A DNA stretch of 64,000 nt from Bryobacterales bacterium (GTDB lineage: Bacteria > Acidobacteriota > Terriglobia > Bryobacterales > Bryobacteraceae). Below are positions 2,579 through 54,686 of this stretch, piece by piece (the stretch's first letter is position 1; every line of letters starts with the position of its first letter). Under the pieces are notes generated by a model that saw only the letters and a program-made list of their open reading frames with translations, was not told the origin of the DNA and made no database searches. The stretch spans positions 1 to 64,000 of the forward strand of contig PNAJ01000114.1 of the NCBI GenBank assembly GCA_003170295.1, written 5' to 3'. The position numbers and the translations under genes are program-made.

Positions 2579-2610
2579 GTTAGATATCCTACACTTTCTT
2601 TGTAGCCCTT

Positions 2611-15458: not shown

Positions 15459-15552
15459 CGATCTTTGCATTTCGTTCCGGTTCAGGACGGCGCTCTCTTT
15501 GGAGTGCTCCATTTCCCTTTTTGACCCTCCCTGCGCAGTTAGCCCTCCCAAA

Positions 15553-15601
15553 AGACCATATAACGGAAGTACGACCATTATGGTCCGATATGGTGTATGA
15601 T
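15553..15601 (+). promoter_or_regulatory. possible iron-responsive operator/promoter of feoAB
   Basis: Three to four ACCAT half-sites: GACCATA (15553-15559), the perfect palindrome GACCA-TTA-TGGTC (15573-15585) and ATATGGT (15588-15594), then a -10-like TATGAT at 15596-15601. The half-sites overlap where RNA polymerase would bind, which suggests repression. It does not match the usual Fur box. The regulator is unknown. Confidence 0.45.
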
Positions 15602-15675
15602 CGTGAGTGAGAGAACTCACAACTGCAAACGGATTTCGTATAGTAGTTAGTTGACCCGCAAAGCTGAGGCCAGAA

Positions 15676-15933
15676 ATGCAAGTGATTTTCAAAAAGGGCT
15701 CGTCTAAAAAGGCCAAGAACCTCACCGAGCTGAAGCCCGGCGAAGCTGGGGTGCTCGGCAAGCTCGACCTGCCCGACGACGACGCGCAACGGTTGATGGA
15801 AATGGGTTTCGTGCCCGGCCACTCCATAACGCGAGGCCTTTCCGCTCCCGGCGGTGATCCCAGGGTCTTTCGCGTAGACGGGTCTGAGGTCGCTCTGCGC
15901 CGCGAGACCGCTCTCCGGCTGATTCTTCGATAG
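15676..15933 (+). CDS. feoA: FeoA, ferrous iron transport accessory protein
   Basis: 85 residues, a single SH3-like FeoA domain: LTELKPGEAGVLGKL, RLMEMGFVPGHSI, EVALRRETALRLILR. The FeoA fold resembles the DtxR C-terminal domain; it interacts with FeoB and is needed for Fe(II) uptake. GAGG lies ~7 nt before the ATG. FeoB starts 7 nt after its stop, so this is a feoAB operon. The sequence before the domain (QVIFKKGSSKKAKN) is a short Lys-rich extension. Confidence 0.92.
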   Translation: MQVIFKKGSSKKAKNLTELKPGEAGVLGKLDLPDDDAQRLMEMGFVPGHSITRGLSAPGGDPRVFRVDGSEVALRRETALRLILR

Positions 15934-15940
15934 GAATTAT

Positions 15941-17872: not shown

Positions 17873-17939
17873 CATGTCGAAGTGCTGGATGTTTCGGGAA
17901 ATAGACATCCGCCGATAGCGTGGCCTCTCATTAGGTTTT

Positions 17940-18048
17940 GTGGGGCGGGCGCCCTCGCCCGCGCTGGACCCCCTGGTCCGGCTCTGCCAACGTACTCAAA
18001 GCGGAGGCCGACGCGGGCGTCGGCCGCAGTCCAGGGGGACTGCCCCAC
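17940..18048. repeat. REP-C/MITE-like element bounded by GTGGGGC/GCCCCAC
   Basis: 109 nt with terminal inverted repeats GTGGGGC and GCCCCAC. Inside are at least four hairpins: GCGGGCG-CCCT-CGCCCGC (17945-17962), GGACC-CCCT-GGTCC, GGCCGACG-CGGG-CGTCGGCC (18006-18025) and AGTCC-AGGG-GGACT. The ends match those of the transposase-bearing element at 30327-30929, so this is a probable non-autonomous relative. The rest of 17873-18138 has no gene. Confidence 0.75.
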
Positions 18049-18138
18049 TCCTCTGCCTCCTCCTAAGAAGCCGAATACAGCGGTTCGACTCTGGCAGCTG
18101 TCTACGGTCTCCTAGCTTGTTCTTTAAACTGGTGAGCA

Positions 18139-40411: not shown

Positions 40412-41413
40412 CTAAACCTTCGCCGGGACCAACACTGGCGCGGTTGCCAGCAACTGGTCTTCGAAGGAGTAATCTGGCTTCGGGAACGTGTTGTGGCGCA
40501 GATACCATTTATAGGTCTCTTTTAAGCCCGTGGCGAAATCCGTGGACTTGAACTTTAGCACTCGCTGCGCCTTCGCGGTCACCTGCGTAATGGGCGGAAC
40601 GTCGACATAATTTCCGAAATACAACTTCGGACCCATCGGATGTCCGCCCGCCCGCAAAATGTATTCGCGGGGAATGCGGACGAATTTCACAGGCTTCTTG
40701 CAGGCCTTCGCGAAGGCCTCGACGACTTCGGCCTGCGAGAGAGGCCGGGCGTTCGCGATATTGAAAGCGTGGCCGACGGCGGCTGGTTCGTCCATCACTT
40801 TCAGGCACGCTCGTACCAGATCCTTCACGTAAATGAACTGCGCGAGGCGACGGCCGTCGCCCGGCAGGATGATCGACCGTCCGGCGCGGAGGCGGTCCCA
40901 GAAGAATGCCTCGCGATAGAGATTGTTGCCGGGTCCGTAGACAAACGGAGGACGCAGCGTCACCACCGGCAGGCCGATTCGTTGATGCAGGCGGAAGAGC
41001 GCTCGCTCGCTCATGGCCTTGTTGCGCGTGTAGAGTTCGGGCGCATCGTCTGGCGCGAGTGCGTCGCCCTCATGATGATTCAGGCCGTCGCCGTACGCCG
41101 CCACGCTCGACATAAAAACGTAGCGATGAAGATTGGCGCCGCCGAGGGCGCGTACGGACGATTCAATATGGCCCGCCGTGGTACCGCGTTCCAAGTCGTA
41201 GACGTTATCGAAGACGATGTCGAATTTCTTGCCTGCGAGCGCGGCTTTCATGGCCTGGCCGTCGTTGCGGTCGGCCACGATATTTTTCACGCGGCGTCCC
41301 AGATCGTGCCGCGCGCGGCGATGCAGCACCGTCACGGAATGATCCGCTTTCAATAGATCGGCAACCAGCATACGGCCGATGAACCGGGTTCCACCTATGA
41401 CAAGGCAGTTCAT
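40412..41413 (-). CDS. NAD-dependent epimerase/dehydratase (extended SDR)
   Basis: 333 residues. NAD-binding VIGGTRFIGRMLVADLL, SSVAAYGD with the catalytic serine region, YTRNKAMSE as YxxxK, and RPPFVYGPGNNLYREAFFW identify an atypical extended short-chain dehydrogenase. Enzymes of this kind act on nucleotide sugars. Its 3' end lies directly against that of the previous gene (convergent, 0 nt gap). It lies upstream of the inositol phosphate synthase gene in no shared operon: the two are on the same strand, 43 nt apart, which allows co-transcription. Confidence 0.85.
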   Translation of the reverse strand: MNCLVIGGTRFIGRMLVADLLKADHSVTVLHRRARHDLGRRVKNIVADRNDGQAMKAALAGKKFDIVFDNVYDLERGTTAGHIESSVRALGGANLHRYVFMSSVAAYGDGLNHHEGDALAPDDAPELYTRNKAMSERALFRLHQRIGLPVVTLRPPFVYGPGNNLYREAFFWDRLRAGRSIILPGDGRRLAQFIYVKDLVRACLKVMDEPAAVGHAFNIANARPLSQAEVVEAFAKACKKPVKFVRIPREYILRAGGHPMGPKLYFGNYVDVPPITQVTAKAQRVLKFKSTDFATGLKETYKWYLRHNTFPKPDYSFEDQLLATAPVLVPAKV

Positions 41414-41456
41414 GCGCGAGTCGTTTTATTCAAATTATTCAAATCAAGATAGAGGC

Positions 41457-42818
41457 TCAGTCGTAATACTCCTGGCCTAAGTGCGTGATCAAATCCTCAC
41501 CGCGCATCCATCGCAAGGTGTTCTTCAACTTCATAAGCTGGATGAAAATATCGTGCTCCGGATAGAGGCCCGGAGCGGTCATCGGCGCTTTGAAATAGAA
41601 CGAGAGCCATTCCTGAATACCGCGCATGCCGGAACGCTGCGCCAGGTCCATGAACAACACCAGGTCCAGAACTAGCGGAGCGGCGAGGATGGAATCGCGG
41701 CACAGAAAATCGATTTTGATCTGCATCGGATACCCGAGCCATCCGAAAATGTCGATATTATCCCAGCCCTCTTTCGAATCTCCGCGGGGAGGATAGTAAT
41801 TAATGCGGACCGCGTGATAGAAATCCTTGTACAGTTCGGGGTGAAGCTTGGGCTGCAGGATCGCGTCCAGCACGCTGAGTTTAGTTTCTTCCTTGCTCTT
41901 AAACGAGCCTGGATCTTCCAGCACTTCGCCGTCGCGATTCCCGAGAATGTTCGTTGAAAACCAGCCGCTGAGGCCCAGCATGCGCGCCTTCAGGCCCGGA
42001 GCGATGAGGGTCTTCATGAAGGTCTGGCCCGTTTTGAAATCCTTTCCGCAGACTGGAATATTGCGTTCGCGCGCCAGCTCAAGCAGCGCCGGCATATCGG
42101 TTGTCAGATTCGGAGCGCCGTTGGCGAAAGGGATGCCGCTCTTAAGCGCCGCGTACGCGTAAATCTGGCTGGGCGCGATCTCAGGATCGTTCTTCATCAG
42201 CCCGCACTCGAAATCCTTCAGCGTCTGATGCACAGCCGCGGGGCGATGAAACACTTCCGTGGATCCGCACCAGATCATTACGGAGCGCGAAACGCCATTG
42301 GTTTCCTGAAAATTCCGAATGTCGTCGAGCAGCATCTCCGCTTTGTCCATCTTGGACCCGGCCTCTTTAACGTTGGGACCGTTGATGCGCTTGACGTATT
42401 CCTGATCGAAGACCGCCTTCATCGGCTTGATCGCCGAGAGCGGCTCTCTCAATTTTTCGAGCTGCGGCGCTTCGAGCACGCGCGCATTGGCCGCGGCTTC
42501 ATACGCCGTATCCTCGTAAATATCCCAACCGCCGAAGACCAGATCGTCCAACCCCGCGAGGGGAACGAAATCCTTAATCATCGGCGTGCGATTATCGGTA
42601 CGCTTGCCCAGGCGAATCGTCGCAAGCTGCGTGAGCGATCCCACCGGCACGGCCATACCGCGCTTAATCGCCTCGACGCCGGCAATGAATGTCGTCGAAA
42701 CTGCGCCAATTCCAGGAATCAATACGCCAAGTTTACCGTCGGCAGGCGCAATCTTGACATTGTCGTTACCAGAAGACAAACCGTTGGACTCCTTAGAAGT
42801 GGACCCACCGCCCAGCAT
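41457..42818 (-). CDS. ino1: inositol-3-phosphate synthase
   Basis: 453 residues. LGVLIPGIGAVSTTFIAGVEA is the NAD-binding loop; FGGWDIYEDTAYEAA, PNLTTDMPALLELA, CGKDFKTGQTFMKTLIAPG and SILAAPLVLDLVLFMDLA are hallmarks of myo-inositol-1-phosphate synthases. It converts glucose 6-phosphate to 1L-myo-inositol 1-phosphate, the first step to inositol phospholipids and other inositol compounds. It lies divergent to the LytTR regulator. The first ~25 residues are a low-complexity extension with no clear role. Confidence 0.92.
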   Translation of the reverse strand: MLGGGSTSKESNGLSSGNDNVKIAPADGKLGVLIPGIGAVSTTFIAGVEAIKRGMAVPVGSLTQLATIRLGKRTDNRTPMIKDFVPLAGLDDLVFGGWDIYEDTAYEAAANARVLEAPQLEKLREPLSAIKPMKAVFDQEYVKRINGPNVKEAGSKMDKAEMLLDDIRNFQETNGVSRSVMIWCGSTEVFHRPAAVHQTLKDFECGLMKNDPEIAPSQIYAYAALKSGIPFANGAPNLTTDMPALLELARERNIPVCGKDFKTGQTFMKTLIAPGLKARMLGLSGWFSTNILGNRDGEVLEDPGSFKSKEETKLSVLDAILQPKLHPELYKDFYHAVRINYYPPRGDSKEGWDNIDIFGWLGYPMQIKIDFLCRDSILAAPLVLDLVLFMDLAQRSGMRGIQEWLSFYFKAPMTAPGLYPEHDIFIQLMKLKNTLRWMRGEDLITHLGQEYYD

Positions 42819-42840
42819 GACGCGAGATGCATGACGCGCC

Positions 42841-42868
42841 TTGGGCTTGGGATTGCTTACGTTATACT
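42841..42868 (+). promoter_or_regulatory. promoter placing transcription start at the lytTR start codon
   Basis: TTGGGC (42841-42846), 16-nt spacer, TATACT (42863-42868). The expected start point (~42875) is within a few bases of the ATG at 42877, implying a leaderless or nearly leaderless mRNA. Confidence 0.5.
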
Positions 42869-42876
42869 AACATTTT

Positions 42877-43668
42877 ATGCTCAATCGCGCGACTGCCGCG
42901 GCCGTTTCCGTCGTGATCTCCGCGATTGTGGTGGACGATGAGAAACTTGCCTCCGACGAACTCGCCTATCAATTAAGAGAGTATCCCGACATCGAGATCG
43001 TGGCCACCGCAGCGAATGGACTCGAAGCGGTGCAGTTGATCGTGGATCTGGAGCCGGATCTTGTTTTTCTCGATGTGCAAATGCCCGGCCTGGACGGCAT
43101 GGGCGTGCTCCGCAAGCTGCGCGAGAAAGAAATCCCTCTGCCGTATTTCGTGATGGCGACGGCTTACGATCAGTACGCAGTCGAGGCGTTCAAGTGGGAA
43201 GCGCTCGACTATATCTTGAAGCCCGTCGAGAAAGAACGCCTTTCGCAGGCCATCGACCGGGCGCGCAAATGCGTCGCGGAGCGGCAGAAAATCGCCCACG
43301 CGGAACTGCCTCCGCCCAAGCCTTCGCTGCAGCGGACCAAGCTGCTGGTCAAAAACAATCAGCGCAATTTTATCGTCGATGCGCAGGATGTCGTGTATGC
43401 CACCATCGAGGATGGACTGATTACCGTCGTGGCCTCGAGTCTCGAGGGGCAGTCCAACTATCGCACCATCGAAGAACTGCAATCGAACCTGGATCCGGAA
43501 ATGTTCTGGCGCGTGCACCGGTCATTCCTGGTGAACATTCATCGAATCAAAGAGGTTATTCCGTGGTTCAAATCGAGCTTTCAACTGCGCATGGACGATA
43601 AGAAACAAACCGAGATCCCTGTCAGCCGGGTCCAAACGAAGCGTCTGCGCGCGCTGTTAAAACTGTGA
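42877..43668 (+). CDS. LytTR-family response regulator
   Basis: 263 residues from ATG 42877. Receiver domain: acidic pair VVDDEK (~19-22), phospho-acceptor D66 in VFLDVQMPGLDG, and the conserved lysine in YILKPVE. A short linker leads to a LytTR DNA-binding domain (~155-260; EDGLITVVASSLEG, FWRVHRSFLVNIHRIKEV, EIPVSRVQTKRLRALL). No histidine kinase is adjacent. It stands 30 nt before the radical SAM gene on the same strand and may control or be co-transcribed with the biosynthetic genes downstream. A GTG at 42913 is an alternative start with no ribosome binding site. Confidence 0.88.
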   Translation: MLNRATAAAVSVVISAIVVDDEKLASDELAYQLREYPDIEIVATAANGLEAVQLIVDLEPDLVFLDVQMPGLDGMGVLRKLREKEIPLPYFVMATAYDQYAVEAFKWEALDYILKPVEKERLSQAIDRARKCVAERQKIAHAELPPPKPSLQRTKLLVKNNQRNFIVDAQDVVYATIEDGLITVVASSLEGQSNYRTIEELQSNLDPEMFWRVHRSFLVNIHRIKEVIPWFKSSFQLRMDDKKQTEIPVSRVQTKRLRALLKL

Positions 43669-43698
43669 CCTTCCGCGTTCTGAAAGCGTCTAATAAAC

Positions 43699-45024
43699 AT
43701 GGCTCTCGATTCGAATCTGGTTCTTGACGAAGAAACAACGGTCGGGAACTACTTCGTCTCGAACTATCCTCCTTATTCGTTCTGGAGCGAGGCCAATGTA
43801 GCGGACGCGCATGCGGCGCTTAACCGTGCGCCGGCCCCGAATACGCCGCTTGGCGTATATCTCCACATCCCTTTCTGCCGCAAGCGCTGCACTTTTTGCT
43901 ATTTCAAAGTTTATACCGACAAAAATGCGTCCGAGATCGAAGGCTACATGGACGCCGCGATCAAAGAGCTGGAAATTTACTCGAAAAAGCCGTTCATCGG
44001 GGGCCGTAAGCCAAAATTTATTTATTTCGGCGGAGGCACTCCATCCTATATATCGTCGAAGCAGCTGGCTTCGACGGTCGACGCGATGAAGAGGGCGCTG
44101 CCTTGGGATGAAGTGGAGGAGGTCGCGTTCGAATGCGAGCCAGGGACGCTGACCGAAGGCAAACTCCGCACGATTAAGGATCAGGGCGTGACGCGGCTGA
44201 GCCTGGGGATCGAAAATTTCGACGATCATATTCTAGAGATTAACGGCCGCGCGCATCGCTCCAAGGAAGTCGCCCGATCCTACGATTTCGCACGTTCCAT
44301 CGGCTTCCCCCAGATCAACATCGATCTGATCGCCGGCATGATGGGGGAGACGGAGGCGAATTGGCAGGATTGCATCGGAAAAACCATCGCGATGCAACCC
44401 GACTCCGTCACCATCTACCAGATGGAAGTGCCTTACAACACTGGCATTTTTAAGGAAATGAAAATTCTGGGTCAAACCACCGCGCCGGTGGCCGATTGGA
44501 AAACCAAGCGCCACTGGGTGAAGGACGCGTTCGCCGCGCTGGAACAAGCTGGATACTCGGTCGCCAGCGCGTACACTGCCGTGAAAGACTCGTCGAAAGC
44601 AAAATTTCTTTATCGCGACCTGCTGTGGGCTGGAGCGGATCTGATCGGCGCGGGCGTCGCTTCGTTCTCGCACGTCGGGGGCACCCATTTTCAAAATCAG
44701 CACGACTGGGACCCGTACCTGGCAGCGATCAATCGCGGCGAGTTGCCGATTTATCGCGCGCTCACGCCAAATCCCGAAGAGCGCATGATCCGTGAGTTCG
44801 TTCTGCAAATGAAGCTCGGCCATGTGGAGAGCGCGTATTTCCAGCGCAAATTCGGCGTCGACGTCGAGAGACGTTTCCATGGCCCGCTTCAGAATCTGAA
44901 AGACCGCGGTCTGCTCGCGACGGACCACGGGATGCTGATCCTTAAGCGCGATGGGCTGCTCCAGGTCGACCGGCTGCTACACGACTTCTTCCTCCCACAG
45001 CACCGGACGGCCCGCTATGCCTGA
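43699..45024 (+). CDS. HemN/HemW-like radical SAM enzyme
   Basis: 441 residues. The [4Fe-4S] cluster motif CxxxCxxC is C60, C64 and C67 in PFCRKRCTFCYFK; FGGGTPSYIS and the ECEPGTLT, RLSLGIENFDD, INIDLIAGMMGET blocks follow the coproporphyrinogen dehydrogenase family, and a HemN_C-like domain ends the protein. The substrate segment YQMEVPYNTGIF departs from HemW and recalls class C radical SAM methylases and other secondary-metabolite HemN homologues. It would act on S-adenosylmethionine anaerobically. Context (chorismate-lyase-like, halogenase-like and ligase genes, each overlapping the next) argues against heme synthesis. Confidence 0.87.
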   Translation: MALDSNLVLDEETTVGNYFVSNYPPYSFWSEANVADAHAALNRAPAPNTPLGVYLHIPFCRKRCTFCYFKVYTDKNASEIEGYMDAAIKELEIYSKKPFIGGRKPKFIYFGGGTPSYISSKQLASTVDAMKRALPWDEVEEVAFECEPGTLTEGKLRTIKDQGVTRLSLGIENFDDHILEINGRAHRSKEVARSYDFARSIGFPQINIDLIAGMMGETEANWQDCIGKTIAMQPDSVTIYQMEVPYNTGIFKEMKILGQTTAPVADWKTKRHWVKDAFAALEQAGYSVASAYTAVKDSSKAKFLYRDLLWAGADLIGAGVASFSHVGGTHFQNQHDWDPYLAAINRGELPIYRALTPNPEERMIREFVLQMKLGHVESAYFQRKFGVDVERRFHGPLQNLKDRGLLATDHGMLILKRDGLLQVDRLLHDFFLPQHRTARYA

Positions 45025-45592
45025 ACTTATCGATACTCTAACCGCCGCTGTGTCCGACGTCGCCCTCCTTTATCCGCTCAACGAGTTTTACTCGCAGGCG
45101 GGTCTCTCGCTTCCCTTTGCCACGCGCATCAATGGTCGCGATATGCCGGAGCCTTATCGCCACCTGCTGGTTCACGATCGCGACATGACGCCGACGCTCG
45201 AAGCCGCTTATGATCGAAAGATGAATCTGCGCGTGCTGAAATACTCGCTCGTTGGCGAGGTCTTTTCGCGCCAGATCGTGCTGGTTCCGGAGGACAGCGA
45301 TTCCCCCGCGGTTTTTGGCGCGATCAAAATTTATCTGGACCAGTTCCCTGCCGCGGCGCGCGATCTTGTGTTGGAGCGCAAGCTGCCGCTGGGAACGATT
45401 CTCGAATCGCAAGCGATCAAGCATTTCAGCCGTCCCGACGCTTTTTTTGAAGTCGAGGCCGACGGGTCCATCTGCCAGGGCTTGCACATCACCGGCCCCG
45501 CGCGGCTCTATGGGCGGCGCAACATGCTGGGCAACAGCACGGGTCGAAAATTAGCGCAGGTTTTAGAAATCCTCCCGGAGAATTTTAGATGA
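45017..45592 (+). CDS. chorismate-lyase-like (UbiC/UTRA-fold) protein
   Basis: 191 residues from ATG 45017, 8 nt inside the radical SAM gene. The pattern LLVHDRDMTPTLEAAYDRKMNLRVLKYSL, then PLGTILESQAIKHFSR and a C-terminal GRRNMLGNSTGRKLAQVLEILPE follows chorismate-pyruvate lyases and related small hydroxybenzoate-forming enzymes. The UbiC family cleaves chorismate to 4-hydroxybenzoate plus pyruvate; related enzymes give 3-hydroxybenzoate. The assignment is by pattern only. If right, this gene supplies an aromatic acid to the ligase encoded two genes downstream. Confidence 0.65.
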   Translation: MPELIDTLTAAVSDVALLYPLNEFYSQAGLSLPFATRINGRDMPEPYRHLLVHDRDMTPTLEAAYDRKMNLRVLKYSLVGEVFSRQIVLVPEDSDSPAVFGAIKIYLDQFPAAARDLVLERKLPLGTILESQAIKHFSRPDAFFEVEADGSICQGLHITGPARLYGRRNMLGNSTGRKLAQVLEILPENFR

Positions 45593-46854
45593 ACTACGAT
45601 GCAATCGTGATCGGCGGCGGTCCCGCCGGATCCACGGCCGCGGCGACGCTGGCCCTCAAGGGACGCAAGGTTGTTCTGCTCGAAAAGGAGAAATTCCCGC
45701 GCTATCACATCGGCGAATCGCTGCTGCCCTACGGCTACTTCACCATGGAGCGGATCGGCGTGCTCGACAAAATGAAGAAGTCGGCGTTCACAAAAAAATA
45801 TAGCGTGCAATTCGTCAGCCCCGATGGCCGCGCCTCCGTCCCGTTCTACTTCCACACTCATTTGCAGCACGAAGCCGCGCAAACCTGGCAGGTACTTCGC
45901 AGCGAGTTCGACCAGTTGATGCTCGACAACGCCCGCGAAAAAGGCGTCGTGGTTCACGAAGAAACCACGGTTCGTGAAGGGATCTGGGAAAACGGCGCGG
46001 TGGTCGGCGTGAAAGCGGTTAGCAAGGATGGCTCGACAACCGAATTCCGCGCGCCCATCACGATTGATGCCACCGGTCGCGACGCATTTTTCATTTCTCG
46101 CAGCGGCTGGAAAATTCGCGATCCTTATTTAGACAAGATCGCCGTCTGGACCTATTACAAGGGCGCAAAGCGCGACTCCGGATATGACGAAGGCGCGACC
46201 ACCGTCGCTTATGTGCCCGAAAAAGGCTGGTTCTGGTACATTCCTCTCGCCGGCGATATCGTCAGCGTAGGGGTCGTTGCTGAAAAAACTTATCTATATA
46301 AAACCTCGAAGGACCTTAAGGAAATCTTCGATCAACAGGTCGAGCAGAACGTCTGGATCAAGGATCATCTCGCGGTGGGCGAACAAATCGGCCCCTATCG
46401 CGTGACGGGCGAGTATTCCTACCGCTCGCGCCATTGCGGAGCGCAGGGTCTGATCCTCACCGGCGACGCGTTTGCGTTTCTCGATCCGGTCTTTTCCTCC
46501 GGCGTGTTCCTCGCGCTGTACAGCGGCGAGATGGGAGCGAACTTCGCCGACGCCTGCCTCACCGATAACGACTTCTCAGCCTCGCGCTTCGTTAAATACG
46601 GAACCGAGCTCTGCAAGAGCATCGAATCGATGCGCGCCCTGGTCTACGCTTTCTACGATCACAACTTCAGCTTCCGCGAATATCTGAAGGAGTTCCCCAC
46701 GATGAAGGGCGACGTGACCGACTGCCTGATCGGCAATCTGCTGCACGATTTTCAACCGATGTACGACGGCATGTCGAAGCACGCCAAGCTCCCCGAACCC
46801 TTAAAACACGGCGCGCCATTACTCCAAGAAGAAACGGTTTCCGTTCAAGGGTGA
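45589..46854 (+). CDS. FAD-dependent halogenase-like oxidoreductase
   Basis: 421 residues, starting 4 nt inside the preceding gene. GGGPAGSTAAATLALKG (~9-25) binds FAD; FPRYHIGESLLPYG is the second family motif; GWFWYIPLAGD (~212) is the WxWxIP motif that marks flavin-dependent halogenases and blocks a monooxygenase reaction; ILTGDAFAFLDPVFSSG is the C-terminal FAD contact. This class halogenates phenols and pyrroles, usually on carrier-bound or free aromatic substrates. Other WxWxIP proteins are not halogenases, so the activity is open. A flavin reductase partner is not encoded nearby. Confidence 0.8.
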   Translation: MNYDAIVIGGGPAGSTAAATLALKGRKVVLLEKEKFPRYHIGESLLPYGYFTMERIGVLDKMKKSAFTKKYSVQFVSPDGRASVPFYFHTHLQHEAAQTWQVLRSEFDQLMLDNAREKGVVVHEETTVREGIWENGAVVGVKAVSKDGSTTEFRAPITIDATGRDAFFISRSGWKIRDPYLDKIAVWTYYKGAKRDSGYDEGATTVAYVPEKGWFWYIPLAGDIVSVGVVAEKTYLYKTSKDLKEIFDQQVEQNVWIKDHLAVGEQIGPYRVTGEYSYRSRHCGAQGLILTGDAFAFLDPVFSSGVFLALYSGEMGANFADACLTDNDFSASRFVKYGTELCKSIESMRALVYAFYDHNFSFREYLKEFPTMKGDVTDCLIGNLLHDFQPMYDGMSKHAKLPEPLKHGAPLLQEETVSVQG

Positions 46855-48002
46855 CCGCGAGAATCAAATCGCTTCTCGATACGATTCTTCCCGCGAATCG
46901 ATTCTACGCCCGCAAGCTCGCGAGCGGCGACGATTTTTTCACGACCAAACAAGAACTAATCGACGATCAAGCCGCGCATCCTCCGTACGGCACCAACCTG
47001 ACGTTCGCGCGCGATCGCTATACTCGGTTCTGCCAGACCAGCGGAACCTCGGGGCATCCGCTCCGCTGGCTCGATACGCCGGAGAGTTGGAATTGGATGC
47101 TCGGCAATTGGGACCGCGTTTATCAAGCCGCAGGCATCACCGCGAAAGATCACATCTTCTTCGCGTTCTCCTTCGGACCCTTCCTCGGATTCTGGACCGC
47201 CTTCGAATCTGCCACGCGCATGGGCGCGCTAGCGATTCCCGGCGGAGGAATGCGCACCGCCGTCCGCCTCCGGACGATTTTAGAGACTCGCGCGACGGTG
47301 CTCTGCTGCACGCCCACCTATGCCATCCGCCTCGCCGAAGCAGCCGCCGAAGAAAAAATCGACATCCAAGTCTCGAACATTCGCCGCATCATCGTAGCCG
47401 GTGAACCGGGTGGCAGCATCGCGTCGACGCGCGCTCATATCGAAAAGCTGTGGCCCGGCGCGCGCGTCGTCGATCATCACGGCATGACCGAAACCGGCCC
47501 CGTCAGCTACGGCTGCCAGGCGCGCCCCGGCGTTCTGCACATCATCGAATCTTCTTACATCGCCGAGGTCATCGACGGAGAACTGATCCTCACGAATCTT
47601 GGACGCATCGGCTCTCCGGTGATTCGCTACCGGACGGGCGATTTGGTCCGCGCCGTCAGCGGCCAGTGCGTCTGCGGCTCGATCGATGTTGCGCTCGAAG
47701 GAGGCATTCTCGGCCGCACCGACGATATGGTCGTCGTCCGCGGCGTCAACATTTACCCCACCGCGGTCGAAGAAGTTCTCCGCTCCGAAGGCGTCACCGA
47801 GTATCGAGTAGAAGTGCGAACCGATCGGTCCATGACGCAGCTACACATTCAAGTCGAGTCGGACCCCTCTGCAATTCATCGCCTGGAAGCCGCACTCACC
47901 AACGCGTTTGCGCTCCGCATCCCCGTAGAGAGCGTCGCCACCGGCACTCTGCCGCGTTTCGAAGCGAAGGCGAAGAGATGGGTTCGCTATGATCGGTCTT
48001 AA
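46851..48002 (+). CDS. PaaK-like AMP-forming acid ligase
   Basis: 383 residues, GTG start overlapping the halogenase-like gene by 4 nt. ATP-binding TSGTSGHPLRW (63-73), DHHGMTETGPVSYG, VIRYRTGDLVRA and GRTDDMVVVRGVNIYPTAVEE are the ANL-superfamily motifs in the phenylacetate-CoA-ligase order. It is shorter than PaaK (~430-440). The family adenylates a carboxylic acid and transfers it to CoA or another thiol. The gene neighbours suggest an aromatic acid as substrate. No acyl carrier protein gene is present. Confidence 0.85.
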   Translation: MTARIKSLLDTILPANRFYARKLASGDDFFTTKQELIDDQAAHPPYGTNLTFARDRYTRFCQTSGTSGHPLRWLDTPESWNWMLGNWDRVYQAAGITAKDHIFFAFSFGPFLGFWTAFESATRMGALAIPGGGMRTAVRLRTILETRATVLCCTPTYAIRLAEAAAEEKIDIQVSNIRRIIVAGEPGGSIASTRAHIEKLWPGARVVDHHGMTETGPVSYGCQARPGVLHIIESSYIAEVIDGELILTNLGRIGSPVIRYRTGDLVRAVSGQCVCGSIDVALEGGILGRTDDMVVVRGVNIYPTAVEEVLRSEGVTEYRVEVRTDRSMTQLHIQVESDPSAIHRLEAALTNAFALRIPVESVATGTLPRFEAKAKRWVRYDRS

Positions 48003-48700
48003 TGAATCGCGAGTATCATAAGTGGTACAGTCCGAGCCTCGGGCGCGACATGGAACTGCTCGTGTTCGGGCATGCCGGAATTCCCGTCATCGTGTTTCCC
48101 ACTTCGATGGGCCGTTTTTTCGACTACGAGAATCGCAACATGATCGGCGTCATCGGCGATCAGTACGAAAACGGCCAAATACAGGCCTTTTGCGTCGATT
48201 CCGTCGATGCCGAGAGCTGGTATAACAAGTCCGTCCATCCCGCGCTGCGCGCCGCGCGGCACGTGCAATACGACAACTATTTGGTCAACGAGTTGGTTCC
48301 GTTTGTCCATTCGCGCAACGCATCTTCTGAGTTAGCAGTCACCGGATGCAGCTTCGGCGGCTATCATTCCGTGAACTTCGCGCTCAAGCATCCGCAACTG
48401 GTGACGCAAACGCTCAGCATGGGCGGAGCCTTCGACATCCACCAGTTTCTCGACGGCTACTACGACGACAACTGCTACTACAACTGCCCTCCGGATTTTC
48501 TCCCCGATGTCAACGATCCAGCGATTGATCGTTTGAAGATCGTTCTCGCGGCGGGCGAGACCGATATCTGCCGCCCTGAAAATGAGCGCCTCTCCGGCAT
48601 CCTGTCGGCGAAGGGCATCCCGCACACGCTCGACATCTGGGGCGATGGCGCGGGACACGATTGGCCGTGGTGGCAGGAGATGGTCGAAAAATATCTCTAG
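48002..48700 (+). CDS. alpha/beta-hydrolase (esterase D-like)
   Basis: 232 residues; the ATG uses the last base of the ligase stop codon (TAATG). Nucleophile elbow GCSFGGYH (S117), acidic residue in GETDICRP (~184) and His in GAGHDWPWW (~220) give a complete triad. There is no signal peptide, so it is cytosolic. It resembles the esterase family that includes putative esterases and acyl transfer hydrolases. In this operon it could release or transfer the acyl group made by the ligase. Genes to its left are in one tightly packed run; a 385-nt gap follows. Confidence 0.85.
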   Translation: MNREYHKWYSPSLGRDMELLVFGHAGIPVIVFPTSMGRFFDYENRNMIGVIGDQYENGQIQAFCVDSVDAESWYNKSVHPALRAARHVQYDNYLVNELVPFVHSRNASSELAVTGCSFGGYHSVNFALKHPQLVTQTLSMGGAFDIHQFLDGYYDDNCYYNCPPDFLPDVNDPAIDRLKIVLAAGETDICRPENERLSGILSAKGIPHTLDIWGDGAGHDWPWWQEMVEKYL

Positions 48701-49085
48701 CCGCGCGAATTTAGCGCCGGAAACGCGACCGTTAGACGCCAGTTTAACGCTAAATAACGCTGGGAGCTAAAAAGGCACTCCGGTGCGCGAGTCCAAGAAA
48801 ACACATCACTTTACTCCAATCCGCGAAAACTTCCTCGCGTTAGATTCGCGTTATTTTAACGCGAGGCGAGGACAAGCCCGGGGCCCGTCCTACTTGACTC
48901 AGGATAGATGGGGTAGTGGAGGGCGACGGTGCTTGAAGAGCTTATCGTTTTGATTTGATGATTGGTTAGCGACGCGATATTTCGGCTACTGTTTCCATGG
49001 CCGTTTCTCCGTCGATTTAGCGAACCGCATGCTTTGCGTGGCAGCTCCGCTTCAGGATGTGTGTCTGCGATACCATGCGAACAGC
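48701..49085. other. 385-nt intergenic region with hairpin
   Basis: No gene. A 10-bp inverted repeat CCTCGCGTTA...TAACGCGAGG (48833-48842/48857-48866) could end the upstream transcript, though no U-run follows. Sequence downstream of it may hold the promoter of the ATP-grasp operon; no clear -35/-10 pair was found. Confidence 0.5.
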
Positions 49086-50012
49086 ATGGGAAAAATCGGC
49101 GTCATCTACGGAATGGAAAACACGTTCCCCCCCGCATTGGTCGACCGCATCAATGCAATGCGAGTCGAAGGCGTCGAGGCCGAACACATCCACATCGGCG
49201 GCATAAAAATGGCCGAGCCCTCCGGCTACCGCGTCATCGTGGACCGCATCTCTCACGACATCGCCTTCTATCGAGCTTATCTCAAAAACGCCGCGCTCAA
49301 CGGCGCCACGATCATCAATAATCCATTCTGGTGGGGCGCGGACGACAAATTCTTCAACTACGCGCTGGCCTCGAAAATAGGCGTTGCCGTTCCCCGCACG
49401 GTGCTCCTGCCGCACAAAGCGCATCCGCCCGGAACCACGGCGCAATCCATGCGTAATCTGATCTACCCGTTGAACTGGGAAGAAATTTTTGAGTACATCG
49501 GCTTCCCGGCGTTCCTGAAACCCTTCAGCGGAGGCGGCTGGAAAAGCGTCTATAAGGTCGACACGCCCGCCGAGCTCTTCTCCGCCTACGACGAAACCGG
49601 CGACCTCTGCATGACCCTGCAGAAGGCCGTTAACTTCACCGATTATTTCCGCTGCTACGTGGTCGGCCAGCAAAAGGTTCACATCATGCAATACGATCCG
49701 CGCCGTCCGCACGCGCATCGCTATGTGCTGGACGCGCCGCCGATCGATCCCGCACTGTACCGGCGGCTCGAAGATGATTGCCTGAAATTATGCCGCGCTC
49801 TCGGCTACGATCTCAACACCGTCGAGTTCGCGGTGGAAGACGGCGTTCCGTATGCGATCGATTTTCTAAATCCCGCCCCCGACGCCGAGCTGCAATCCGT
49901 CGGCAAAAAGAACTTCGATTGGATTGTCGATGCCGTCGCGGAATACGCGGTAGAGCAGGCTCTAGCAGAGCCTGTACAGGTGACCATGCGGTGGGCGAGC
50001 TTCCTGTCATGA
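49086..50012 (+). CDS. ATP-grasp ligase (RimK-like)
   Basis: 308 residues from ATG 49086 (GKIGVIYGMENTFPPALVDR). ATP-grasp pattern: FPAFLKPFSGGGWKSVYKV with the ATP-binding lysine, AVNFTDYFRCYVVG, and the Mg-binding segment NTVEFAVEDGVPYAIDFLNP. The family joins a carboxylate to an amine or thiol through an acyl-phosphate. Its stop overlaps the GCS2 start as ATGA, so the two ligases are made together. The amino-acid substrates are not inferable. Confidence 0.85.
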   Translation: MGKIGVIYGMENTFPPALVDRINAMRVEGVEAEHIHIGGIKMAEPSGYRVIVDRISHDIAFYRAYLKNAALNGATIINNPFWWGADDKFFNYALASKIGVAVPRTVLLPHKAHPPGTTAQSMRNLIYPLNWEEIFEYIGFPAFLKPFSGGGWKSVYKVDTPAELFSAYDETGDLCMTLQKAVNFTDYFRCYVVGQQKVHIMQYDPRRPHAHRYVLDAPPIDPALYRRLEDDCLKLCRALGYDLNTVEFAVEDGVPYAIDFLNPAPDAELQSVGKKNFDWIVDAVAEYAVEQALAEPVQVTMRWASFLS

Positions 50013-51139
50013 CCCGGCCCAGCTTCACCATCGGCATCGAAGAGGAGTATCAGACCATTGACCCGGTGACGCGCGACTTGCGCTCGCACATCGACGCCGA
50101 AATCATCGCCAAGGGCAAGATGCAGCTTAAGGAAGCGGTGAAAGCCGAGATGCATCAAAGCGTCGTCGAGGTTGGCACCGGCATCTGCGAGAACATTCAG
50201 GACGCGCGCGAGGAAGTCCGCCAGCTTCGCGGCGCCATCATCACGCTAACTCGCGAAAATGGATTGCGCCTCGCGGCCTCCGGCACGCATCCGTTTGCCG
50301 ACTGGCGGAAACAGGAGATCTATCCCGACGAGCGCTACTACACCATCGTCGAGGATATGAAAACCGTCGCGCGCGGCAATCTCATTTTTGGTTTGCATGT
50401 GCATATCGGTGTGGAGGATCGCGAAACCGCGATTCATCTGATGAACGCGGCACGGTACTTCGTTCCGCATATGCTGGCGCTGTCGGCCAATTCGCCGTTC
50501 TGGCTCGGCATGGACATGGGACTGAAATCATATCGCTGCAAAGTGTTCGATAAATTTCCGCGCACGAACATTCCCGATTATTTTCCAAGTTGGGGCGAGT
50601 ATCAGAGCTTCGTCGATCTTCTCGTCCAGACGCACTGCATCGACAACGCGAAGAAAATCTGGTGGGATATCCGCCCGCATCCGACATTCCCGACGCTCGA
50701 ATTTCGCTGCTGCGATATTCCCATGCGCCTCGATGAAACGATCGCGCTTGCCGCGTTGATCCAGGCGACCGTGGCAAAATTATATAAGCTCCACGAAGCG
50801 AATCAGGGCTTTCGTCTCTATCGCCGCGCGCTAATCATGGAAAACAAGTGGCGTGCCGCGCGCTATGGGCTCGATGGCAAGCTGATCGATTTCGGCCGCC
50901 GCATCGAAGTCCCCATGCGCGATCTGGTCGATGAATATCTTGCCTTTGTCGACGATGTTCTCGATGAACTCGGATCGCGCGAAGCGATTGGCGGCATTCG
51001 CAAAATCGTGGAAAACGGAAATGGCGCGGACCGTCAACTCCGCGTCTTCAAGGAAACAGGAGATTTGACGAAAGTGGTGGATTACATTATTGACGAGACC
51101 GAATCGTCGGTATTCGCGGATGCGGGGGCTGCACGTTGA
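50009..51139 (+). CDS. GCS2-family carboxylate-amine ligase (YbdK-like)
   Basis: 376 residues from ATG 50009. SFTIGIEEEYQTID at the start, QSVVEVGTGICENI, ASGTHPFADW, LHVHIGVEDRETAIHLMN and EFRCCDIPMRLDET are the glutamate-cysteine-ligase-2 motifs, with the clustered acidic and His metal ligands. YbdK-type enzymes make gamma-glutamyl or similar amide bonds with ATP, weakly with cysteine in the case of E. coli YbdK. Its 5' end overlaps the ATP-grasp gene by 4 nt and its 3' end the aminopeptidase gene by 4 nt. Confidence 0.92.
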   Translation: MTRPSFTIGIEEEYQTIDPVTRDLRSHIDAEIIAKGKMQLKEAVKAEMHQSVVEVGTGICENIQDAREEVRQLRGAIITLTRENGLRLAASGTHPFADWRKQEIYPDERYYTIVEDMKTVARGNLIFGLHVHIGVEDRETAIHLMNAARYFVPHMLALSANSPFWLGMDMGLKSYRCKVFDKFPRTNIPDYFPSWGEYQSFVDLLVQTHCIDNAKKIWWDIRPHPTFPTLEFRCCDIPMRLDETIALAALIQATVAKLYKLHEANQGFRLYRRALIMENKWRAARYGLDGKLIDFGRRIEVPMRDLVDEYLAFVDDVLDELGSREAIGGIRKIVENGNGADRQLRVFKETGDLTKVVDYIIDETESSVFADAGAAR

Positions 51140-52143
51140 TTAAGATTCCCTTCGATCCAGAATTTTCGCAAGGCGCGCACAACGCGGTACATGTCTGCCT
51201 TCGCATTCAGCCCCAGGAAAAGGTCACGCTAATCACCGATCACGCGTGTCTCGAAATCGCGGCCAGCATCGCCGCGGAGCTCGACCAGCTCGGGTCGCCG
51301 TATGAGACGTTCGTACTCGAAGACCTCGCGCCGAGGCCGTTGACCGACATGCCTCGTCCCATTCTCGACGACATGGAGACCAGCCAGGTGAGTATTTTCG
51401 CGGTCGTCGCGCAGAAGAACGAACTACGCACGCGCATGCAGATGACCGAAGTGGTCAATCGCCGCAAGATACGGCATGCGCACATGGTCAATATCGAACG
51501 CCGCATTATGCTGGAAGGGATGCGCGCCGATTTCAAAAAGGTAGACGCGCTCAGCGTGAAAGTCTGGGAGATCGCCACGGCATCGCACCAAGTGTGCGCC
51601 CGCACGGAGGCAGGCACGGATATCGTGGCCGATTTAAATCCGAATTACAAGTGGCTCAAAACCAGCGGCATTATTAGCCCAAATAAGTGGGGCAATCTTC
51701 CGGGCGGCGAAGTGTTCACGACTCCCGGCGAGGTAAACGGCACGTTCGTTATCGACGGTGTCGTGGGCGATTATCTCTGCGCCAAGTACGGCGATCTGTG
51801 TGAGACCCCGCTGACGATTCATGTCGAGAAGAATCGCCTCAAGGAAGCAACCAGCGCGAATCGCGAATTGCAGGACGAGTTCTGGCGGTACACGCACACC
51901 GACGAAAATAGCGACCGCGTGGGCGAGTTCGCCATCGGCACGAATATCGGCCTGCATGGCGTGATTGGAAATATTTTGCAGGATGAAAAAATTCCCGGCG
52001 TGCACATCGCTTTTGGAAATCCCTACGGCGCGCACACCGGCGCCGATTGGGATTGCTCCACCCATATTGACGTTGTGGGCACGAGGTTCGACATCTGGGC
52101 GGACGACCGTCAAATCATGCGGGCGGGCGAGTTTTTGATTTAG
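51136..52143 (+). CDS. M29-family aminopeptidase-like metalloenzyme
   Basis: 335 residues from a TTG at 51136, overlapping the previous stop (TTGA). C-terminal half: GEVFTTPGEVNGTFVIDG, then GEFAIGTNIGLHG and NILQDEKIPGVHIAFGNPYG...DWDCSTHIDVV, which matches the dinuclear metal site of aminopeptidase T (conserved Glu, His, Tyr, Asp positions). Enzymes of this clan remove N-terminal residues. In a ligase operon it could trim a peptide or act as a transferase. It is shorter than classical M29 enzymes (~410). Confidence 0.82.
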   Translation: MIKIPFDPEFSQGAHNAVHVCLRIQPQEKVTLITDHACLEIAASIAAELDQLGSPYETFVLEDLAPRPLTDMPRPILDDMETSQVSIFAVVAQKNELRTRMQMTEVVNRRKIRHAHMVNIERRIMLEGMRADFKKVDALSVKVWEIATASHQVCARTEAGTDIVADLNPNYKWLKTSGIISPNKWGNLPGGEVFTTPGEVNGTFVIDGVVGDYLCAKYGDLCETPLTIHVEKNRLKEATSANRELQDEFWRYTHTDENSDRVGEFAIGTNIGLHGVIGNILQDEKIPGVHIAFGNPYGAHTGADWDCSTHIDVVGTRFDIWADDRQIMRAGEFLI

Positions 52144-53268
52144 ATGATTCCCGAGCGGCGGCGCCAGTTCAACGAAAGCTATACGCCGGAGCGCTACCAG
52201 CGCTTCCTAAAAATGCTCGACGACGGCTGCGGGACACACATCAAATTCCGCAACTGCGAAACGCCGTGCTTCTTTCCACGTCCTTTGATCGAGCGTATGG
52301 AACGCGACGGGCGCGAGCTGATTCAGCAGTTGATGACGCCGGAGTATCTGAAGCGCAGCGCTGAAACGATTCCCGCCGCGTATCGCGTCGCGAACGAAGA
52401 CCCGCGACCGCTGTTCATTCAAGTCGATTTCGGATTGACAGAATCGCTCGAACCGAAGCTGGTCGAGATCCAGGCGTTCCCTTCGCTATATGCGTATCAG
52501 CCTTTTCTGCAGCGCGCCTATCGCGATGCCTACGATATGCATCTGGAGTTAGATCCCTCCTTTGAGGCCGAATTCCGCCGCGCCGTCGTTGGTAACCACG
52601 ATCCTCGAAATGTAGTGCTCCTCGAGATCGATCCGCTGCAGCAGAAGACTCTACCCGATTTTTTGCTGACTGAAAAGATGCTCGGCATCAAGGCCGTTTG
52701 CATCACTAAGATCGAGAAGCGCGGCAACCGGCTCTTTCATAACAACGTGCCCATCGAGCGGATTTACAATCGCGTGATAGTCGACGAACTGCAGCGGAAC
52801 AATATCCAGCAGCCGTTCGATTACCGCGACGATTTGCACGTCGAATGGGCCGGTCATCCGAACTGGTATTTCCGCATCAGCAAATTTTCGCTTCCGTTTC
52901 TAAAGCATCCTTCTGTTCCGCAAACTCGCTTTCTAAGCGAAGGCGTGCCGGACGATCTGGAGAACTGGGTCTTGAAGCCCTTATATTCTTTTGCGGGATT
53001 AGGCGTCGTTATAGGGCCAACCCACGAAGACATCGCCCGCGTCGCGAATCCCAGCGAATACATTCTGCAGGAGCGCGTTAACTTCGCCTCTCTCATCGAC
53101 ACTCCACATGGCGCCACGAAAGCCGAGATCCGGATGATGTACATATGGCTTGATACACTTCGTGCCGTCACAACCATCATTCGCATGGGACGCGGCAAGA
53201 TGATGGGCGTCGATCATAATCGCGATTTGGAATGGGTCGGCGCGTCTTCCGCGTTTATTATTCCGTGA
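52144..53268 (+). CDS. circularly permuted ATP-grasp-like protein
   Basis: 374 residues, starting directly after the aminopeptidase stop (0 nt). VEIQAFPSLYAYQPF recalls the EFN-type acidic segment of glutathionylspermidine-synthase-like enzymes, and NWVLKPLYSFAGLGVVIGP followed by ILQERVNFASL and TKAEIRMMYIW is the ATP-grasp pattern of lysine, glycine loop and acidic residues. The order suggests a permuted ATP-grasp fold, as in proteins of peptide-tag and glutathionylspermidine systems. It would be the second ligase of this operon. Assignment by pattern only. Confidence 0.65.
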   Translation: MIPERRRQFNESYTPERYQRFLKMLDDGCGTHIKFRNCETPCFFPRPLIERMERDGRELIQQLMTPEYLKRSAETIPAAYRVANEDPRPLFIQVDFGLTESLEPKLVEIQAFPSLYAYQPFLQRAYRDAYDMHLELDPSFEAEFRRAVVGNHDPRNVVLLEIDPLQQKTLPDFLLTEKMLGIKAVCITKIEKRGNRLFHNNVPIERIYNRVIVDELQRNNIQQPFDYRDDLHVEWAGHPNWYFRISKFSLPFLKHPSVPQTRFLSEGVPDDLENWVLKPLYSFAGLGVVIGPTHEDIARVANPSEYILQERVNFASLIDTPHGATKAEIRMMYIWLDTLRAVTTIIRMGRGKMMGVDHNRDLEWVGASSAFIIP

Positions 53269-53320: not shown

Positions 53321-53980
53321 TTGAAGCAAATCGAGTCGAAGCATCCGGCCGCCATTCGCTGGTTTCACTGGATCAACTTTCCGTTGCTCAGCATTATGAT
53401 CTGGAGCGGACTGCTCATCTATTGGGCCAACGACGTTTATAAAATCGGGTGGGGCAACACGACCCCTTTTCATTTCTTCCCGCAAGGATTTTACGACGCG
53501 CTCGGCATCGGCTCACGGCTTTCGGAAGGGATGGCGTGGCATTTCTTGTTTATGTGGCTGTTCGCCCTCAACGGTGTGTGCTACGTCCTATACACGATTT
53601 TTTCGGGCGACTGGCGCTACCTGGTTCCGAATCGCACCACGCTTCGGGAAGCCATCCAGGTGGTGCTGCACGATTTGCATTTGAGCAAGGCTCCACTGCC
53701 GCGTCAAAAATTCAATGGTGCCCAGAAGATTGCTTATTCGAGCATCATCGTGATGGGTTTCGGTTCGCTGGTCACCGGCCTTGCGATTTGGAAGCCGGTG
53801 CAGTTCGGCGGGCTGACCGCGATGTTGGGCGGATATGCCGCGGCGCGCGTGGAACACTTCCTTCTCACCATCGGTTATGTACTCTTCTTCGTGATTCACT
53901 TATCGCAGGTGATTCTCGCGGGATGGAATAACTTTCGTGCGATGGTCACAGGATTTGAGGTGGTAAATGAAGGCGACTGA
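53321..53980 (+). CDS. cytochrome b subunit of molybdopterin oxidoreductase
   Basis: 219 residues from a TTG with AAGGAAGG upstream. Four to five membrane helices with histidines at conserved places: WFHWINF (H16), GMAWHFLFMW (~74), RVEHFLLTIGYVLFFVIH (~175-190). This is the b561-like, thiosulfate-reductase/formate-dehydrogenase gamma type that holds two b hemes and links quinones with a periplasmic partner. The molybdopterin subunit gene overlaps its end by 14 nt. The pair resembles YedZ-YedY-type systems in function, though the membrane subunit belongs to another family. Confidence 0.88.
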   Translation: MKQIESKHPAAIRWFHWINFPLLSIMIWSGLLIYWANDVYKIGWGNTTPFHFFPQGFYDALGIGSRLSEGMAWHFLFMWLFALNGVCYVLYTIFSGDWRYLVPNRTTLREAIQVVLHDLHLSKAPLPRQKFNGAQKIAYSSIIVMGFGSLVTGLAIWKPVQFGGLTAMLGGYAAARVEHFLLTIGYVLFFVIHLSQVILAGWNNFRAMVTGFEVVNEGD

Positions 53981-54686
53981 CCAGGAGATTTCACGCCGCA
54001 CCCGGCGCAGCTTTTTGACCGGTGGAATCGCCGCGGCGGCGGGCTTCGGAACTTGGTATTGGATTCGCAACAGCTTTGACGACAACGGCATTCCGCGGCC
54101 GTTGCGGCGGGCCGAAGAAGCCGACGATGTGTTCTCCCGCGCCTTGTTCAGCGAAACACGACTCGCGAAAACGTTCGATGCCGCCGACATTGGAGAGGCG
54201 CGGGTAAACGGCAAAATCGGACTCGACGGCGAGCCCAATTCGGATTGGAAATTGATAGTTGAGGGCGCGAGCCCCGTCTCGCTCGATCAGATAAAAGCGC
54301 TGCCGAAGGTGGAGCACATCACGCAGTTCAAGTGCATTGAGGGGTGGAACTACATCATGAAGTGGGGCGGCGCGAGGTTCTCCGATCTCGCCAGAGCGCA
54401 TGCGCCCAGCGGAGCGATCGAAAAACGCTGGGCCGGCCTGGAAACCCCGGACGGCGAATATTACGTCGGTCTGGACCGCGCCTCCGCCATGCACCCGCAA
54501 ACGCTGCTCGCATACGAGATGAACGGCCTGCCGCTGACGAACGATCACGGCGCGCCGCTGCGGCTGATGATTCCCGTGAAATATGGAATCAAGAACCTGA
54601 AGCGGATCGGCAAGATTACGTTTAGTGATTCGCGTCCGCGCGATTACTGGGCGGAGAATGGGTATGATTACGACTCGGGTTTTTGA
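53967..54686 (+). CDS. periplasmic molybdopterin oxidoreductase (SUOX/YedY-like)
   Basis: 239 residues. Twin-arginine signal SRRTRRSFLTGGIAAAAGFG sends the folded protein to the periplasm. The SUOX-type domain has the molybdenum-ligating cysteine C123 in QFKCIEGWNYIMKW, plus YYVGLDRASAMHPQTLLAYEMNG and GAPLRLMIPVKYGIK. MsrP/YedY reduces methionine sulfoxide in proteins; other family members oxidise or reduce different substrates. Being coupled to a b-type cytochrome gene, it probably takes part in quinone-linked periplasmic redox chemistry. Confidence 0.9.
   Translation: MKATDQEISRRTRRSFLTGGIAAAAGFGTWYWIRNSFDDNGIPRPLRRAEEADDVFSRALFSETRLAKTFDAADIGEARVNGKIGLDGEPNSDWKLIVEGASPVSLDQIKALPKVEHITQFKCIEGWNYIMKWGGARFSDLARAHAPSGAIEKRWAGLETPDGEYYVGLDRASAMHPQTLLAYEMNGLPLTNDHGAPLRLMIPVKYGIKNLKRIGKITFSDSRPRDYWAENGYDYDSGF

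Follow-up and report, generated by a model that had tools for sequence, protein, structure and literature searches.

Four genes of a putative aromatic-acid pathway probably interrupt an amide-ligase operon in a Bryobacterales genome

The window, a 64,000-nucleotide (nt) stretch from a Bryobacterales bacterium (GenBank assembly GCA_003170295.1, contig PNAJ01000114.1, positions 1 to 64,000), carries a run of nine co-directional genes that we read as a composite of two modules. The first, M1, encodes a HemN-like radical SAM enzyme (rSAM), a chorismate-lyase-like protein (CL), a FAD enzyme resembling flavin-dependent halogenases and a PaaK-like ligase (PaaK). The second, M2, comprises an esterase gene (EST), GRASP1, GCS2, M29 and GRASP2. 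We put at about 0.74 the probability that M1 sits between a LytTR response-regulator gene and the EST gene of the M2 operon and belongs functionally to a wider, apparently undescribed pathway. The original prediction had joined all nine genes in one aromatic-acid and peptide-ligase locus. Its gene count, order, strand and junctions are confirmed by the open reading frames (ORFs) that fill positions 43699–53268 of the plus strand, with start codons chosen at 45017 for CL, 49086 for GRASP1 and 50009 for GCS2; a single nine-gene pathway is not supported.

The M1 genes overlap throughout: rSAM (43699–45024) with CL (45017–45592) by 8 nt, CL with FAD (45589–46854) by 4 nt, and FAD with PaaK (46851–48002) by 4 nt. 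M2 follows on the same strand with EST (48002–48700), GRASP1 (49086–50012), GCS2 (50009–51139), M29 (51136–52143) and GRASP2 (52144–53268), where GRASP1/GCS2 and GCS2/M29 each overlap by 4 nt and M29 and GRASP2 abut. The boundary between the modules is PaaK/EST and not the 385-nt gap between EST and GRASP1 (48701–49085), which is internal to M2 and wider than in the related loci L245, L248 and L302. In six relatives, the LytTR gene is joined directly to EST. The intervening gap is 24 nt in L243, 51 nt in L245, 139 nt in L248, 23 nt in L251 and 27 nt in L302, and in L299, from genome G311 of the window's own genus, there is no gap at all, the end of LytTR sharing 4 nt with the beginning of EST. 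In L269, from G309 of the same genus, a 668-residue ORF (1440–3446) without a Pfam match fills the slot. In the window the slot measures 4,333 nt (43669–48001, plus strand), begins behind a LytTR gene that ends ...CTGTGA, and holds M1, which is absent from this site in the relatives. Parsimony favours an insertion of M1 in the window's lineage as the simplest account, in which the segment would have entered exactly between the LytTR stop and the EST start.

The surroundings of the slot are those of M2 elsewhere. Among 47 regions of the phylum's genomes that surround a GRASP2 homologue (one contig counted twice, as L250 and L270, and several cut by contig ends), seven (L243, L245, L248, L251, L269, L299 and L302) have a LytTR homologue beside M2 with the myo-inositol-1-phosphate synthase gene INO1 adjoining, and the left-hand neighbours in these relatives are the window's own at 40412–43668. 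In the window these are an NAD-dependent epimerase-like gene (40412–41413, minus strand), with a homologue 55–82% identical at the same place in L243, L245, L251, L299 and L302; INO1 (41457–42818, minus strand; Pfam PF07994 and PF01658), 81–87% identical to its homologue beside LytTR in the seven loci; and the LytTR gene itself (42877–43668, plus strand; assigned by Pfam), whose homologues in those seven are 72–81% identical. All five M2 genes are present in 16 of the 47 loci, with EST syntenic with GRASP1-GCS2-M29-GRASP2 in relatives, and none of the 47 yielded an M1 gene. Since ten loci (L097, L100, L101, L102, L105, L107, L110, L112, L244 and L304) have GRASP2 without the other M2 genes, GRASP2 is an imperfect marker of M2 and may have a role of its own. 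Judged from sequence, M2 is a conserved acidobacterial operon in its own right, apart from M1, with a predicted amide-ligase function. The converse holds as well: intact M2 genes were found in none of 104 M1 loci, and 103 of these have no M2 match at all.

Co-occurrence across genomes points the same way. We scored one sample of 297 genomes of the phylum for rSAM (E<=1e-80), LuxC (E<=1e-80) and GRASP2 (E<=1e-10), which are present in 48, 59 and 38 genomes, respectively. rSAM and LuxC occur together in 46 genomes against 9.5 expected, and LuxC is present in all 21 families that have rSAM. In contrast, rSAM and GRASP2 meet in 4 genomes against 6.1 expected (p 0.48), and LuxC and GRASP2 in 7 against 7.5. 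A joined query over 257 genomes of the order, which scored three candidates per genome and may have missed some matches, gave rSAM in 55, GRASP2 in 86 and both in 13 against 18.4 expected (p 0.11); in the 23 genomes of the genus, rSAM is present in two and GRASP2 in four. The original prediction held that it would fail if the two halves never co-occurred, and what we find comes close to that: the only genome among the 257 with rSAM and GRASP2 on one contig is the window's. Because rSAM goes with LuxC and does not go with GRASP2 above chance, the partners of M1 are probably LuxC and the GT4-FtsX genes rather than M2.

The window's genome has these partners on other contigs: a LuxC-like gene on contig C81 (48% identity) and a GT4 gene on contig C50 (37%), the latter with genes for an FtsX-like permease (E 6e-164) and a PQQ-like propeller behind it. 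LuxC was present in six of seven genomes tested at 1e-20. In genome G423, LuxE, LuxC, GT4 and FtsX lie together (L293) and M1 is on another contig (L115). Since the partner genes are on other contigs in both genomes, the M1 pathway seems to be split over several loci in the window's family.

The larger cluster was seen by searching named genomes with an rSAM alignment, which returned at least 590 stretches, at least 570 of them confirmed. We kept the best 80, which are the nearest relatives of the window's rSAM family and not a random sample. By record title they are mostly Verrucomicrobiota, then Acidobacteriota, with two Planctomycetota (L154, L188), two Armatimonadetes (L170, L191) and one labelled Actinomycetota (L143). 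Counting neighbours on the same strand as rSAM, and only in loci whose sequence reaches far enough in the direction concerned, we find downstream CL in 55/71, FAD in 55/65, GT4 in 35/60, 4HBT in 36/51, an EamA-like gene in 25/51, PaaK in 30/49, an ABC ATPase in 16/47 and FtsX in 12/44. Upstream lie a BamB-like propeller (42/67), Fe-ADH (11/57), a LuxC-like gene (12/53) and a LuxE-like gene (11/53). We chose the names LuxE, LuxC and EamA for similarity; the assignments backed by Pfam are Aldedh, Fe-ADH, GT4, 4HBT, SSF and FtsX. Five loci (L154, L171, L174, L179 and L188) have the full order PQQ-like, SSF, LuxE, LuxC, Fe-ADH, BamB-like, rSAM, CL, FAD, GT4, 4HBT, EamA-like, PaaK, ABC, FtsX, with CL-FAD moved behind PaaK in L188, and many Acidobacteriota are reduced to rSAM-FAD, sometimes accompanied by PaaK, 4HBT and CL. 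The earlier statement that the locus has no transporter holds for the window and fails for the fuller clusters, which have ABC/FtsX and SSF genes alongside. We place M1 in a widespread and apparently undescribed pathway, probably for an aromatic compound: in the titles and abstract openings of a literature that included few subscription journals, we found no description of M1, of the larger cluster around it or of the M2 operon.

Some side observations concern these loci. The BamB/PQQ-like beta-propeller directly upstream of rSAM looks secreted, and L174 encodes a PQQ-like protein with a weak match to TIGR04528, acido-empty-quinoprotein. L033 carries a tandem rSAM pair (15168–18126), both members 58% identical to the query, from recent duplication or an assembly effect. 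A first CL search had matches in 22 of the 297 genomes, 11 of which (genera g72 and g103) have weak, distant CL-like proteins with no M1 neighbours in their short loci, and three strong matches (L003–L005) likewise have no M1 genes in the loci viewed. We set aside an aryl-polyene or flexirubin pathway, since neither a ketosynthase nor a carrier gene turned up among the recurrent neighbours identified, not every neighbour having been scanned. Alpha-E chemistry was a stray lead, with one match in the window's genome, on contig C168.

Several observations weigh against a composite locus with its M1 partners elsewhere. The Fisher value for rSAM and LuxC (1.6e-39, 297 genomes) comes from a test that ignores kinship and treats non-independent genomes as independent. 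LuxC occurs without rSAM in 13 of these genomes, and the same-genus genome G309 has rSAM-FAD-PaaK and no LuxC match at 1e-20. At the module boundary, PaaK and EST share a 1-nt overlap (TAATG), EST starting at the A of the PaaK stop TAA; with the end of one gene overlapping the start of the other, the two are now probably co-transcribed. No repeats flank the inserted segment, where only scattered short matches were found, and G+C is even (M1 genes 56.4–60.9%, M2 54.5–57.9%, window 58.3%), which points to neither an insertion mechanism nor a donor. Moreover, the one exceptional M1 locus, L146, from a Bryobacteraceae genome with an rSAM of a different clade, reads rSAM-FAD-4HBT-PaaK and, about 340 nt further along this strand, has a GRASP2 remnant: positions 14621–14695 encode the last 25 GRASP2 residues at 80% identity (E 9.4e-8 in a search of the 104 loci), and that genome has no other GRASP2 match at 1e-10. 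The remnant implies that M1 and M2 have become neighbours at least twice. Such a repeated meeting could reflect a favoured site or a shared function, and it keeps a joint reading alive.

That joint reading, in which the M2 ligases would couple the activated hydroxybenzoate of M1 with a small peptide or amine and the product would be trimmed, we nevertheless regard as unlikely. It draws on the nine co-directional genes, the overlapping junctions including the single nucleotide shared by PaaK and EST, and the remnant behind M1 in L146. Set against these are co-occurrence no greater than chance in both genome sets (4/297 and 13/257), M2 without M1 in 47/47 loci and M1 without intact M2 in 104/104, M2 standing alone at the same place in relatives with no other intact M1-M2 joint found, and the association of M1 with LuxC instead. 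Less probable still is a chimeric contig, in which the M1-M2 join would be a misassembly. The genome is metagenome-assembled, 82.9% complete and in 168 contigs, and it is the sole one of 257 with both halves on one contig; yet a chimera would need two breakpoints, both falling on a stop or start codon within one operon, and both flanks are the ancestral neighbours and G+C is even. A composite locus, most simply the result of insertion, is the reading that we prefer.

Among the M1 proteins, rSAM has a Pfam match at 3.4e-20 and a conserved CxxxCxxC motif (12-row alignment); its best NCBIfam model is hemN, and its profile matches HemN (1olt, 1.5e-53) and then NocN (1.8e-34) among solved structures. 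CL has no Pfam or NCBIfam family, and no lyase appears at E<=1 among 32 family members. Its family profile matches the DUF98 structure 2nwi at 3e-7, and its structure model (pLDDT 93.7) has 2nwi as top fold match (E 2.9e-8), with the chorismate lyases 1g81 (1e-4), 1jd3, 1fw9 and 1g1b below it and UTRA ligand domains ranking in between. By this model, CL has the fold of DUF98 and chorismate lyase. R85 (63/63 alignment rows) and E184 (61/61) are conserved and would be the counterparts of the active-site Arg and Glu of UbiC. The ligase has the Pfam domains AMP-binding and AMP-binding_C_2 and keeps its C-terminal lysine K373 in 47/47 rows with a letter; it scores under the PaaK cut-offs of TIGR02155 (129.3 vs 646.3) and NF041878 (157.7 vs 700). 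For the FAD enzyme, the best solved match is the halogenase 8zop (1.8e-61), the Trp_halogenase Pfam score is 100.7 against a cut-off of 21, and the score is under the CmlS equivalog cut-off (205.4 vs 900). Its best solved relatives presumably act on carrier-bound aryl groups.

Two of these assignments have alternatives. A hydroxylase or reductase, giving a product without halogen, is a possibility of some weight for the FAD enzyme, which also matches geranylgeranyl-reductase-like models and QhpG. We still lean towards a halogenase: the six best solved matches are all halogenases, and K70 and W214, W216, I218 and P219 (WxWxIP) are invariant in 88/88 rows, a catalytic-type lysine and a motif that we take to define halogenases. 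For rSAM, the alternative is that it serves as the genome's oxygen-independent coproporphyrinogen oxidase, with M1 devoted to tetrapyrrole metabolism. HemN is both its best model and its best solved relative, and besides rSAM the window's genome has no match to the hemN model; that genome is incomplete, and no search for other oxidases, or for the haem oxidase in use, was made in it. The score is far under the HemN equivalog cut-off (TIGR00538, 185.8 vs 324.95 bits), and the genomic partners are CL, FAD, PaaK and LuxC, not haem genes; we consider a tetrapyrrole role the least probable of the readings weighed here.

The original prediction proposed that the first part of the locus could form and activate a hydroxybenzoate, and for the four M1 genes a route from chorismate to an activated hydroxybenzoate is still the most natural reading. 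CL would split pyruvate off chorismate, yielding 4-hydroxybenzoate, which PaaK would activate as its AMP or thioester derivative, and the halogenase-like enzyme and rSAM would modify the ring or the acyl derivative. For rSAM, methylation is the likeliest reaction if the analogy with NosN and NocN holds. The LuxE, LuxC and Fe-ADH products would then reduce the compound, GT4 would glycosylate it, and the ABC/FtsX proteins would export it. These partner genes (LuxE/LuxC-like, Fe-ADH, GT4, the 4HBT thioesterase and ABC/FtsX) adjoin M1 in Verrucomicrobiota and Planctomycetota and are dispersed in the window's genome. A more specific version, doubtful as it stands, makes M1 the mark of a new, widely distributed pathway in Verrucomicrobiota, Acidobacteriota, Planctomycetota and Armatimonadota, whose product would be a hydroxybenzoate derivative that is glycosylated, exported, modified by the radical SAM enzyme and probably halogenated. 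On that version other operons could take up M1 as a block, and the uptake of M1 by the LytTR-controlled M2 operon, echoed by the remnant in L146, would yield an aryl-amide.

Parts of this scheme resemble known systems. In the indolic-acid branch of nosiheptide and nocathiacin biosynthesis (NosI, NosN/NocN), a HemN-like radical SAM enzyme is found beside an adenylating ligase for an aromatic acid. M1 makes the same pairing, and NocN is the second solved match of rSAM; unlike that branch, M1 has chorismate-lyase-like and halogenase-like genes, and no precursor of a ribosomally synthesized and post-translationally modified peptide and no carrier protein were seen with it. Mycobacterial phenolic glycolipids start from the chorismate lyase Rv2949c and FadD22. 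The M1 cluster shares with that system a DUF98-type CL, a putative hydroxybenzoate ligase, a glycosyltransferase and export, but the M1 loci viewed have no polyketide synthase, add the radical SAM and FAD enzymes, and would use a LuxC/LuxE-like reduction. The flexirubin ligase FlxY and the BagE-FevW ligases are, like the M1 ligase, of the PaaK type, and their NCBIfam aromatic-acid ligase models match it, although far below the cut-offs (101.3 vs 520 and 81 vs 800). In the fuller clusters, an AMP-binding LuxE-like and an aldehyde-dehydrogenase-like LuxC-like protein, followed by Fe-ADH, recall the LuxC/LuxE fatty-acid reductase of bacterial luciferase systems, with the proviso that Pfam supports only AMP-binding (below cut-off) and Aldedh. 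The M2 pairing of a GCS2 ligase with an ATP-grasp ligase is likewise reminiscent of YbdK and the glutathione-type ligases GshA and GshB, whereas M2 is a five-gene operon with an M29-like enzyme, an esterase and GRASP2.

Most family labels in the original prediction were right, and the softer ones are in M2. EST is an alpha/beta-hydrolase matching PF00756. GRASP1 is RimK/Ddl-like: it matches the NCBIfam model rimK_fam at 3.2e-6, under the RimK subfamily cut-off (26.7 vs 143.4 bits), and its profile matches the solved ATP-grasp enzymes Ddl (3r23, 6.4e-5) and biotin carboxylase (1.7e-4). GCS2, a YbdK-type carboxylate-amine ligase, is above the cut-offs of NF010039 (549.1 vs 371) and TIGR02050 (312.7 vs 176.4) and matches YbdK (1r8g) at 7.6e-52. 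The M29-like metalloenzyme is above the PF02073 cut-off (46 vs 27 bits) over residues 155–298, its C-terminal half, only, and a dioxygenase, NicX (7cn3, 2.9e-6), is the one solved structure that it matches at E<=0.01. GRASP2 is a possible ATP-grasp ligase, with weak Pfam matches to ATPgrasp_ST in 9 of 19 members (best E 0.0012) and to TTL in three; comparison with Protein Data Bank profiles gave nothing of weight, comparison with GRASP1 by hhalign gave nothing, a search against plasmids gave no match, and its single-sequence structure model has a pLDDT of 31. In this operon, the making of amide bonds would fall to GCS2 and GRASP1, and trimming to the M29-like enzyme and EST.

If the composite reading is right, M1, carried by about one-sixth of the sampled phylum genomes (48/297) and by hundreds of loci elsewhere (at least 570 confirmed), encodes an unassigned aromatic metabolite or cofactor in common soil and water phyla that have been poorly studied. 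The window would then be an unusually clean case, a four-gene block between two genes that overlap in a same-genus relative, of how an operon gains a foreign module and comes to resemble one pathway. The strong co-occurrence of rSAM with LuxC indicates which genes belong in joint tests.

Promoter-like and terminator-like sites gave no signal (8 and 12 found, against 5.6 and 12.5 in shuffles). Behind GRASP2, at 53321–54686, inspection by eye, with no family search, suggests a b-type cytochrome-like membrane protein and a molybdopterin oxidoreductase-like gene.

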